Origin: Cavenderia fasciculata
Lineage: Eukaryota > Evosea > Eumycetozoa > Acytosteliales > Cavenderiaceae
Length of the DNA: 64,000 bases
NCBI RefSeq assembly: GCF_000203815.1
Contig: NW_004457708.1
Location: forward strand, 1,054,001-1,118,000
Reading direction: 5' to 3'
The translations under genes and the position numbers were made by a program. Under the pieces are notes generated by a model. That model did no database searches, was not told where the DNA came from, and was given only the letters and a program-made list of their open reading frames with translations. Below are positions 16,146 through 20,439 of this stretch, piece after piece (the first letter of the stretch is position 1; the number at the start of each line of letters is the position of its first letter).

Positions 16146-17519
16146 TTATTTGTTATTTTTTTTATGAGCAAGTTGGATTGTATTGTGAATATTTAATGTA
16201 GAAGGTTTAGAACCTATTAATTTTAATTGTACAAGAGTAGATGGGATATTAGTGTAGGTTAAATCCTTGTCAAACGATGAACCAATGGTTAGATACTTTA
16301 AACTAGGTGGTAGAGATGAATCTTCAATGGTCGATGCAAACGCAGTTCCAAGGATTAGAGTCTCTAATTGGGAATCTTTAGCAAAAGTTGTAGAGGTGAT
16401 TGGATGATCATAAGTATCTCCAACATCCAAATAGACAAGTGACAGTGGTAGAATAGTAGAGTCTAATGAATGGTTAAACAAATGTCCAAAAGTAAGATGT
16501 TGTAAACCAAATGGTAAAAGATTTTTTGAAATAGGTTGGTTGAACCATGTTCCAAAAGATAGTTGTTTTAGGTCAAATGGAAGAACTTCTATTTTACTAT
16601 CGAATCTAGACCCAAACTTTAACACTTGCAGCGCGTTGGGAAGCACGTCTACCGTAATTGATTTGTTGAAAAAGTATCCAAACGACAGATAGGTCAGAGT
16701 TGGAGGAAACAAACCTTGACCAAGTGGTCTGTTAAAGTCATAGGGCATCTCGAGGTATTCAAGATTGGGTGGAAAGTCACCAGGTACAAATTGATCACTA
16801 TAACATATAGAGTTTTGACAGAACGTCAATTTGGTGATATTCGACGCTTGATTTAACTCTGCACTGCTAAACGAGACCCTTGGTAATTTGTAACGGAGGT
16901 TGAGCGTGGTCAGAGACAGCGGGTAGAATTTGGGTGTTGGCATTTTATCATTACACTGTAGCAGCGTCAATTCCTTGACTAATGGTGGGATGACACAATC
17001 TTTGTACGAAAAGAAACTAGTGTTGAGGCGAAGATAAATGGTCGACGCTGGAATTACAAGTTCGTTGCATTGAGAATCCAACGAGAATCTAAAAGTGGTG
17101 ATGGTCGATGGATAGTCTTGTTGTTTGGTATTGATCAACACATTGCCTTTAATGGACAGTTCTTCTATATCTTGTGGGAATACGAGTGGTTCTAACTGCT
17201 CGAGTTGGGCAACCGACAAGATATCGATATCATTTCGAATGACGATTGATCGTAGACGAGGACCCATATCCTCTTGCTCTGAATAACGAGACAGTACCTT
17301 TAAAAAGTAAGAGTACCGACTGCGATGTACCGTAATCTCTCTGTAGCAATTGAGTAATGCCAACAGAGGTTTAAAGTCTGGGTCAAAATAGGCATGATCC
17401 AATTCTATCAATCTTTTCTTTCTCGTTCCTTTACATGTATCATACAATGATAGTGTATCATCGGAATCTAATAATCTATATATCTTTGCTATTACTACAT
17501 ATGATAATTTATTTATCAT
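16146..17519 (-). CDS. FNIP-repeat protein
   Basis: A single exon of 457 residues starts MINKLSYVVIAKIYRLL. The N-terminus resembles the degenerate F-box-like helix common in dictyostelid FNIP proteins (VVIAKIYRLLDSDDTLSLYDTCK). The C-terminal half carries about eight FNIP-type units of roughly 22 residues, seen as LPxxLxxLxFGxxFNxPI variants: LPFDLKQLSFGTWFNQPI, LLPFGLQHLTFGHLFNH and LPPSLKYLTIGSSFDKDL. FNIP repeats form a leucine-rich-repeat-like solenoid and are greatly expanded in dictyostelids. They occur in presumed substrate adaptors of ubiquitin ligases, but the role of this copy cannot be read from the sequence. It is convergent with coq5, only 62 bp away. Confidence 0.88.
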   Translation of the reverse strand: MINKLSYVVIAKIYRLLDSDDTLSLYDTCKGTRKKRLIELDHAYFDPDFKPLLALLNCYREITVHRSRYSYFLKVLSRYSEQEDMGPRLRSIVIRNDIDILSVAQLEQLEPLVFPQDIEELSIKGNVLINTKQQDYPSTITTFRFSLDSQCNELVIPASTIYLRLNTSFFSYKDCVIPPLVKELTLLQCNDKMPTPKFYPLSLTTLNLRYKLPRVSFSSAELNQASNITKLTFCQNSICYSDQFVPGDFPPNLEYLEMPYDFNRPLGQGLFPPTLTYLSFGYFFNKSITVDVLPNALQVLKFGSRFDSKIEVLPFDLKQLSFGTWFNQPISKNLLPFGLQHLTFGHLFNHSLDSTILPLSLVYLDVGDTYDHPITSTTFAKDSQLETLILGTAFASTIEDSSLPPSLKYLTIGSSFDKDLTYTNIPSTLVQLKLIGSKPSTLNIHNTIQLAHKKNNK

Positions 17520-17682
17520 TTCTCGAAAAGTATAAAGAGACTATCTTATCTATCTTTTGAATCTAACTAAAACAATTGCGAACCATCAGATCATCTAGAT
17601 CTCTTTTCGTGGTTCGTGGCCCCAAGATCTTTTTTTTTTTGATACAAATTAAATTAATTTATTTATTAATTATTGTTTTGAT

Positions 17683-20439
17683 TTAGTTGGGATGTCTAAA
17701 TTGAGCCAAATGATCTTCATTCTTTCTATAACAGGATCCCCAATATTTACATTTTGGTTTACTTGATGATCTAGTCTTGGGTGGTTCAAAGTCTGAATCA
17801 AAATCATCATCGTCGTCATCTTGATCTTTAGGTGGAACATAATCTTCATCTGATCCTTCGTCTTCTAGATAATCATCTTCATCAATGAAATCATCGTCAT
17901 AGTCGTATTCATCTTCATCTTTCTTTTTCTTTTTGACTTGTTTTTTGGCTGGTGCTTTGGTGGTTGATTTTCTCTTTTTATCTTCCTTTTTCTCTTCCTT
18001 TGCTGCCAACTCGTTCTCTTCATCTTGTAACTTTCTAGCAAATTCTTCATCATCATCAAAATTATATTTCTTTTTTCCAATTGTTCCAAGTGAAATATTA
18101 TTATTCTTCTTTTCATTATTTTTCTTTTCATTATCATTATTTTTCTTGTTGTCACTACTACTACTATCAGTCTTGTTTGATTTACTATTATTATTATTGT
18201 TACTTGTTGTATTATTATTTGAGTTGATATTTTTAATAGTTTCAACAATTAAAGCATATTTTCTATTAGAGAAACTAATGACATCACCATCGGCCAATTG
18301 TGCAGGAGTATCAAATGGTACGGTTGAATAATCGTCTGATCCATTTTCCTTGATGTATAAATGGTTGATACCCAACTTTACAATTTCGATAATAGTTCGA
18401 GCACCAACAATCTTTGCAGTAATGAGTGCTTGTCTTCTACTAATAGCTAGATCCATAATTCCTAAAACAGTTCTACCCAATTCTGTTTCTACTCCATCAT
18501 ATAATGGAATCTTTGTACCATCTTCTTTAATTAAATTTGCTACTATTAATTTATCACCACCATCATTACTACTATGACTATTGTTTGAAGTTGTAGTTGT
18601 AGTAGTCGTTGATGTAGTTGATGGAGATGAAGTTTGTTGTTGACTATTACTTTTTGTTGATTTTGATTCTAATTTAATAGTTGATTGTTCTTCTTCTTGA
18701 TTTTCATCTACATGATCGTCTTCATCTTCTTCATCGTCATCGTCATGTGAAGGAGGTAACCAATCGATCAAAGAATTATCCATACTCTTTAAACTATCAT
18801 TAATCTGTTTTAAAACATTTGAACTGAGGAATGTTTCTAAAATTGGGTTTGGTGTTTCCAATATTTCAATTGGTATAACTCCCATTGATTCAGATTGTAT
18901 AGTTTCAATCTATAGATTAAAAATAAATTAATTAATTAAATTGATCTATTTTATATTTGTTGCTTTTCTTCATTTTCATTTCTTACAATTGATTTCCAAT
19001 TATGAGAATGTTTACCACCAATTACAAAAACAACACCTTTGACATCTTCAGCATCGATTTTAGTTGAAAAGATGGTACGGATGATTTCTTCAATGACAGG
19101 ACGCCAGAATTGTTCGTGTGGCTTTTTGTCATCTTCGTCGTCTTCGGTGACTGTGAGTTGAGTGTTGAGCCACAAGACACCTTGTCTGGCGACGACCTTG
19201 AACCACTCACGCGCACTGTCTGTTGGTAGATCAACCTCTCTGAGGACACCTCTGACAGTGTCAATATCGTCGTCCTTTGTAATGACACCCTTGTACATCA
19301 GAGCAGCACGTACAAGGTTAATGACAGTCTTGCGTCCATCCAATTTCCATGAATTTGATTGTTGATCACAAAATGCATATCCACTTGCGCTAGATCGCTT
19401 TGCAATTGGATTCTGTCCTAAAAATACAACTTTACAATTGATTGGTGACCCAACTGCATTCAATGATGAAAATACATATCTATTATCTGGTAAATATTTT
19501 GAATTTCTATTCTTTCCTAAAAATTCATTTAATCCAAGCTAGAAAAGAAAAGAAATAATTATTAATTATTATTATTATTATTCTATTTCTTATTCTTATT
19601 CTATTTTACACATACAGTATCAGCACACTTTTCTCCACCTAATCCTTGTAACCAAGATTTTGATAAAACAGATTTAATGTCCAAGTTTTGTGGAGTCAAT
19701 GAAGGTTTGGTTGGTTTATGATCATCCTTGTCCTTTGGTGGTGTAGATTTCTTTTTGGAAGAAGTATGATGATTATTATCATCAGAGTCATCAAATAATT
19801 CATCGTCATCGAAATTGTAAGTCTTTTTAACAGTAGCTTTTGATGATGATGATGATGATGATTTCTTATCACCACTAGTACTATCACCCTTCTTTTTAGA
19901 ATTTGTTGCTGCAAACTTCTTTGGTCCTTTCTTTTTTAGTAGACCATTTTTTTGTTCTAAACAATAAACAATAAATGTTGGTTAGATTAATCTTTCTCTT
20001 ATATGTTTTGATACGACATATACGTCAACAACTTACTATAAAGTAGATCTTTAATTTCAGCTTGATCTTTCTTTTCCAATTCTTCAAAACCTTCTAAATC
20101 TTCAATATCTTCTGCTCTTTTTGATGTCTTTCTTGCTCTACCTTGTGCCTATAGAAAGAAGAATAAGATGAAGATAGTTATACATATAAATATATATATG
20201 TTAGTAAAAGATATTCTTTTTCTTTTCTTTTTCTTTTTCCTTTCATTGTTTTTGCATACTCTAAAGAAACATTCAGAATGAAAGTAATCAGTTGCAACAC
20301 CATCGTCATCGAATCTATTCGATGGATACATCTTTGCTATTCTAACCGTATCCTTTGGTATATTTGCTTTGCAATCGGTCGACTTGCAAGATGATCTTGC
20401 AGTCTTTGCATATTCTACTCTAAATGTTCTATCTGCCAT
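17683..20439 (-). CDS. DNA-repair fusion: PARP-type zinc finger, UDG-like, FHA and PBZ domains
   Basis: Five exons (20439-20260, 20148-20037, 19956-19616, 19538-18987, 18909-17683) join in phase to 803 residues. Residues 1-60 form a PARP-type finger with C18, C23, H54 and C57, which in PARP1 and DNA ligase III senses DNA breaks. Residues 62-200 are a charged linker. Residues 212-395 resemble family-1 uracil-DNA glycosylases: VVFLGQNPI (GQNP at 252-255) aligns with the catalytic GQDPYH motif, VLWLNTQLTV with the LLLNxxLTV strand, and GGKHSHNW sits where the HPSPLS loop is expected. Residues 514-619 are an FHA domain of the aprataxin/PNKP/APLF type (ELGRTVLGI, ISRRQALI, GDVISF). The C-terminus is a perfect PBZ finger (C782, C788, H795, H801) that binds poly(ADP-ribose). 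The whole suggests a uracil or base-damage repair factor recruited to breaks by PAR. Whether the glycosylase fold is active is not known, since Asp is replaced by Asn254. Confidence 0.85.

Follow-up and report, generated by a model that had tools for sequence, protein, structure and literature searches.

Dictyostelium proteins that carry a PBZ finger are described as acting either in DNA repair directly (Ku70, Ung) or in the wider damage response (Rad17, Chk2, CHFR) (Gunn et al. 2016, PMC5087659). APL of D. discoideum, built as FHA-PBZ-macro, has no enzyme domain in the available accounts, and a scaffolding role has been proposed for it (PMC8529158, PMC5087659). In human UNG, the double substitution D145N/H268N yields an inactive protein that is used as a sensor of uracil-DNA (PMC8070346) and as a dead control (PMC11162499), and a catalytically inactive UNG sensor pulls down uracil-DNA in a further study whose available main text does not give the two mutations (PMC7505663). 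Here we describe a gene of Cavenderia fasciculata that lies on the reverse strand at 17683..20439 of a 64,000-nucleotide window (contig NW_004457708.1, positions 1,054,001 to 1,118,000) and whose spliced open frame of five exons encodes an 803-residue product. From the N to the C terminus this comprises a zf-PARP finger, a linker, a uracil-DNA glycosylase (UDG)-like domain, a second linker, a likely FHA domain, a third linker and a PBZ finger. The reading that we favor, with some reserve, is that the product is a DNA damage adaptor of the APLF/APL kind, in which a glycosylase fold that has lost the catalytic Asp and His would read DNA without cutting it.

Part of the evidence for this reading lies in the active site of the UDG-like domain (residues ~198 to 447; 18754..19657, on the reverse strand like all features of the gene), which is encoded by exons 3 to 5 with two introns within its span and was placed by Pfam, NCBIfam and PDB matches. 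Its motifs were compared with those of 32 UNG-type sequences, namely the three other UNGs of the same genome, 12 from Campylobacterota and 17 distinct ones from viral contigs (7 of 24 viral-contig loci were removed as duplicates, and one locus, L057, ends before motif B). In the MAFFT alignment, checked at the level of codons, motif A (residues 252 to 256; 19404..19418) reads GQNPI in place of GQDPY, so that N254 occupies the position of the catalytic Asp and I256 that of the motif A Tyr; all 32 rows have D and Y there. The uracil-stacking Phe (F267, within GYAF at residues 264 to 267; 19371..19382) and the uracil-binding Asn (N336, within LWLN at residues 333 to 336; 19164..19175) are kept, each with a match in 32 of 32 rows. 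Motif B (residues 413 to 417; 18844..18858) reads ETPNP and is without the catalytic His, whose column in the same alignment holds N416 here and H in the 31 of 31 rows that have a letter there. The loss of His holds in any register, because there is no His anywhere in residues 392 to 449.

The published family motifs are GQDPY/HPSPLS, GINPG/MPSSSAR and GMNPG/HPSPRN (PMC10359453). The domain has neither the GQDPY with its Asp nor the HPSPLS with its His that would mark a UNG, and neither the GINPG nor the MPSSSAR of the family 2 TDG/MUG enzymes, but GQNPI and ETPNP instead. The genome (30,995,898 bases on 21 contigs were searched) has three further UNG genes that keep D, Y and H, two of them as GQDPY and HPSPLS and the third as GSDPY and HPFS. 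With N for D, I for Y and a motif B that lacks His in every register, beside three UNGs that keep all three residues, the gene gives no support to the base-excision chemistry that a preliminary description had suggested for it as one option; the other option named there, damage sensing, is the one that we prefer. Sequencing error was considered as a source of the changes and rejected: a single base would turn D into N, whereas several more are needed for Y to I and for the change at His.

The fold itself is recognizable. Profile searches of the 803-residue product placed both zf-PARP and UDG by Pfam, the latter at 3.6e-5 with 24.3 bits, exactly the cut-off of 24.3, in the whole protein and at 2.9e-6 on the isolated domain. 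NCBIfam UNG models matched the UDG piece (best 3.7e-18) with scores far under their whole-protein cut-offs, and a PDB sequence match was Staphylococcus aureus UNG at 6.3e-7. A structure model (mean pLDDT 77.4) covers the exon 4 part only and was built from 28 aligned rows (alignment A6), with L048, which has a stop in its stretch, and the short L057 left out. Foldseek returned 137 matches to this model, 7 of them at E ≤ 0.001, with 5x3g at the top (5.3e-4), while VIA gave Z up to 12.1 against the UNG structure 1flz, with 152 residues aligned. All of the best 50 Foldseek rows (of 137) and all of the best 50 VIA rows are uracil-DNA glycosylases, and no TDG, MUG or SMUG structure is among either set of 50, which does not exclude one. 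As modeled, the exon 4 part has the alpha/beta fold of a family 1-type UDG.

Around this altered domain stand the modules that would make the protein a reader. The zf-PARP finger (residues 9 to 95; 20044..20415), which spans intron 1, was matched by Pfam PF00645 at 4.9e-21 (75.7 bits in the whole protein against a cut-off of 39.3), and its zinc ligands C18, C23, H54 and C57 are all present at the positions previously claimed for them. The best single finger among solved structures is that of DNA ligase III (62.2 bits, 3.5e-16), followed by finger 1 of PARP1 (47.7 bits); PARP1 chains head the structure list because the scores of their two fingers sum. At the opposite end, the PBZ (zf-CCHH) finger (residues 779 to 803; 17686..17760) was matched by Pfam PF10283 at 5.4e-11 (42.7 bits against a cut-off of 22.7). 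Its ligands C782, C788, H795 and H801 are likewise intact where they had been claimed, and the tyrosines and arginine of CKY and CYR are present. The best PDB match was a PBZ chain of APLF (1e-10 summed over two fingers, the better of which scored 24.3 bits). To call this finger perfect, as had been done, goes too far, since CKYWGSC departs from the consensus Cx[F/Y]GxxC (PMC4030884), with the consensus Gly displaced.

An FHA domain of the aprataxin/PNKP/APLF type is likely at residues 511 to 624 (18223..18564), where profile matches below cut-off, PDB matches and fold matches coincide. No FHA was listed when Pfam was run on the whole protein with E values allowed up to 1. In the isolated piece FHA_2 (0.0016; 18.8 bits against a cut-off of 23.1) and FHA (0.068) were the only families listed, both below cut-off, and the two PDB sequence matches listed are both to the APLF FHA, at E values without significance (1.4 and 1.5). 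A single-sequence model was poor (pLDDT 46.8); Foldseek searched with it gave APLF FHA as the first 6 of 198 rows, the best at 2.8e-3 and none at E ≤ 0.001. The FHA pieces of the genome's APL-like and aprataxin-like genes (27% and 24% identity) have the same residues at the positions of R541, S552, R553 and N577, which presumably correspond to the phosphopeptide-binding set of FHA domains. Searching the genome with PF17913 gave one match, the aprataxin-like gene at 0.0172, and with PF00498 gave 21 matches, the studied gene being among neither. Of the four modules named in the preliminary description, then, zf-PARP, UDG and PBZ stand on Pfam matches, with UDG exactly at its cut-off, and FHA is retained as likely.

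We place the protein among adaptors rather than repair enzymes because its glycosylase part is without the usual catalytic residues, and an adaptor is the simplest account because the reader modules look intact while the usual chemistry of the sole enzyme fold is gone. As we picture it, the N-terminal PARP-type finger would dock at strand breaks, and the C-terminal PBZ finger would retain the protein on poly(ADP-ribose) (PAR) made at the break. By analogy with APLF, the FHA domain could bind a phosphorylated repair partner, perhaps a scaffold like XRCC1 or XRCC4. The UNG-type domain, its Asp and His lost, may then add a form of DNA or lesion binding that does not cut.

Several points weigh against this reading. 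TDG and MUG, which are active, likewise show Asn at motif A and lack His at motif B (PMC10359453), so that residue loss by itself is no proof of inactivity. The register of motif B is uncertain, with the His position falling on N416 by MAFFT, on T414 if P-x-P is aligned and on a third residue by phmmer, and the loss of the catalytic residues is known from one species only. The FHA domain depends on scores below cut-off and on the low-confidence model, and hhalign of this piece against the genome's aprataxin-like and APL-like FHA domains (probability 12.8, E 0.0022) does not support it. Finally, the frame tested of the genome's own APL-like gene gave no Pfam match to the macrodomain that would confirm its identity.

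A more specific form of the adaptor reading, which we offer tentatively and hold to be possible rather than probable, is that the protein is a natural reader of uracil (or of abasic sites), wired to a break-sensing finger and to readers of PAR and of phosphopeptides. In the vicinity of breaks, such a protein might mark DNA that is rich in uracil or in intermediates of base-excision repair, and bring in the repair machinery while leaving the DNA uncut. On this account, and judging by the alignment, evolution would have hit the same two catalytic positions that engineers alter for the UNG-based uracil sensor.

The main rival is an active enzyme resembling TDG, a glycosylase recruited by PAR whose chemistry is altered: Asn would position the water as in TDG/MUG, the change from Tyr to Ile would open the pocket to other pyrimidines, and the kept Asn and Phe would hold the base. 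The precedent of TDG and MUG, active with GINPG and MPSSSAR (PMC10359453), speaks for this, and Y147A in human UNG1 was engineered for thymine excision (PMC11162499), although the residue here is Ile and not Ala. Moreover, a genome search with PF03167 (E up to 1) found four loci, the three UNGs and the studied gene, with no TDG, MUG or SMUG locus seen; a TDG-type job might thus be vacant, but introns may hide such a locus and a missing match is no proof of absence. The motifs of the domain, however, match none of the families listed in the available text of PMC10359453, and we regard an active glycosylase as rather unlikely.

It is improbable, too, that the UDG-like domain has become a structural or protein-binding block that keeps off DNA bases and leaves recruitment to the zinc finger and PBZ. 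Its very long branch in the tree (6.13 changes per column) would suit such a block, as would a whole-protein Pfam UDG score that just reaches the cut-off, but a mere spacer would have no need of the stacking Phe and the uracil-binding Asn, which the domain retains in agreement with 32 of 32 rows, an observation that comes from one species only.

The preliminary description, which had proposed one spliced gene with all joins in phase, holds. Exons 1 to 5 (20439-20260, 20148-20037, 19956-19616, 19538-18987 and 18909-17683) join in phase into one frame of 803 codons followed by TAA. The four introns (111, 80, 77 and 77 bases) all run GT..AG and have a G+C content of 14 to 26%, against 34.5% for the window. 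The join of exons 1 and 2 is bridged by the zf-PARP match (segments of 52.0 and 18.8 bits, jointly 67.6, against the 75.7 of the spliced product) and that of exons 4 and 5 by the best UNG match (residues 323 to 445); exon 5 holds the end of the UDG-like domain, FHA and PBZ in a single open frame. No domain match bridges exons 2 and 3, whose join is based on splice signals and frame only. The UDG-like part nevertheless lacks a start codon of its own, because Met is absent between residues 37 and 292, with M292 already inside the domain, and exon 3 contains none, nor does its upstream extension, which closes after 9 residues. The sequence thus indicates one gene, not two, and the alternative of two neighboring genes or a pseudogene in decay, to which the uncovered join of exons 2 and 3 lends an argument, is hardly credible in view of the Met-free stretches, the 803 open codons and the intact ligands of both fingers.

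As to the origin of the UDG-like domain, it shares 29% identity with a fragment of 5x3g, the Nitratifractor enzyme, and the two have a common insert after motif A. VIA aligned 169 residues with 5x3g/5x3h, against 144 to 152 for the other rows among the best 50, with Z tied. Li et al. (2017), cited in PMC10776899, is reportedly the study of this enzyme. In 12 of 12 Nitratifractor-type UDGs of Campylobacterota (L019 to L030), motif A is GQDPYP with a long insert behind it and motif B has HPYN, whereas the studied domain has neither GQDPY nor HPYN. Identity over exon 4 is 17 to 25% for these 12 rows and 22 to 29% for viral UNGs, and the best identity in the tree set (29%) is with a viral-contig UNG, L035. 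A bacterial origin is therefore not claimed despite the shared insert, since the best identity is to a viral UNG and the exon 4 identities favor viral over Campylobacterota rows. The tree, whose bootstrap did not settle, could not place the domain. In its best version the domain falls with the UNGs, and grouping it in one clade with Campylobacterota is neither supported nor rejected (p-AU 0.221). With the UDG-like domain alone or the 5x3g fragment as query, no viral-contig relatives were found, and six phage records match the domain, the best at E 4e-8 with a query coverage of 88% and an identity of 27.3%. Its C-terminal stretch, TFL..IDW, resembles that of an ordinary UNG and, together with the exon 4 fold and the kept Phe and Asn, marks its likeness to family 1, from which it differs in having motifs A and B without Asp, Tyr and His.

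Elsewhere in the genome, TIGR00628 finds the three other UNG genes above cut-off (277.5, 221.5 and, from two joined segments, 237.1 bits) and the studied gene as two segments of 25.1 and 23.1 bits. One UNG locus (L006) has GSDPYHG as motif A, a Ser/Thr/Asn insert after HPF in motif B and long low-complexity tails on both sides; one of the three UNG genes has an N-terminal QPKITDFF, which we take to resemble a PCNA-binding motif. The zf-PARP loci are the studied gene and two genes whose neighboring frames were read by eye as PARPs. PBZ loci number five with the studied gene, and the other four, in favor of the adaptor reading, look by their sequences like signaling or repair genes: one with a Ku70/80 C-terminal arm (Ku_C), a Chk2-like one with kinase and FHA frames, an APL-like gene with FHA-like and PBZ frames, and L016, with WWE, BRCT, PBZ and a PARP catalytic domain below cut-off, which may be a PARP able to recognize the polymer that it makes. 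Within the studied protein, two disordered-looking linkers share an acidic YNFDDDE in the spliced translation, in KTYNFDDDELFDDS (residues 142 to 155; 19784..19825) and in KKYNFDDDEEFARK (residues 675 to 688; 18031..18072); the second copy continues into EEFARKLQDEEN, which presumably resembles ubiquitin-binding helices. Next to the gene lies a frame of FNIP repeats (16146-17540, reverse strand; Pfam 5.5e-37), a repeat typical of dictyostelids.

Among known proteins, the closest namesake is the PBZ protein Ung of Dictyostelium, for which Ahel et al. (2008) is said to be the primary source. The studied gene is probably its orthologue, because, by elimination, it is the only one of the four UDG loci with a PBZ match on its contig, the other three UNG genes sitting on contigs without one. 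As its counterpart it would imply that the fusion is older than one species. With a UNG-type domain and PBZ in common between the two (PMC5087659), the earlier remark that no standard UDG has such partners was too strong for PBZ. Searches of the open-access literature turned up nothing on zf-PARP and FHA partners, on the architecture as a whole, on the missing catalytic residues or on a naturally inactive UNG. Should Dictyostelium Ung prove to have the same losses, its label as a direct DNA repair protein (PMC5087659) would need revision. Human APLF and D. discoideum APL share with the studied protein PBZ and, if the likely call is right, an FHA domain of the PNKP/aprataxin type; APLF is the top listed match for both modules, for FHA without significance. 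APLF, however, has two PBZ fingers (PMC6264785) against the single C-terminal one here, and APL has a macrodomain (PMC5087659). The order of modules is not theirs either, as zf-PARP and the UDG-like fold here precede a central FHA. To our knowledge, APLF has neither zf-PARP nor UDG. The engineered UNG sensor (D145N/H268N) is changed at the same two catalytic positions and, like the studied domain, keeps the pocket Phe and Asn; it is man-made and a proven binder of uracil-DNA, whereas the C. fasciculata protein is known from its sequence alone. Should the latter prove to bind DNA with uracil or abasic sites and excise nothing, nature would have its own version of that laboratory sensor, linked to PAR signaling.
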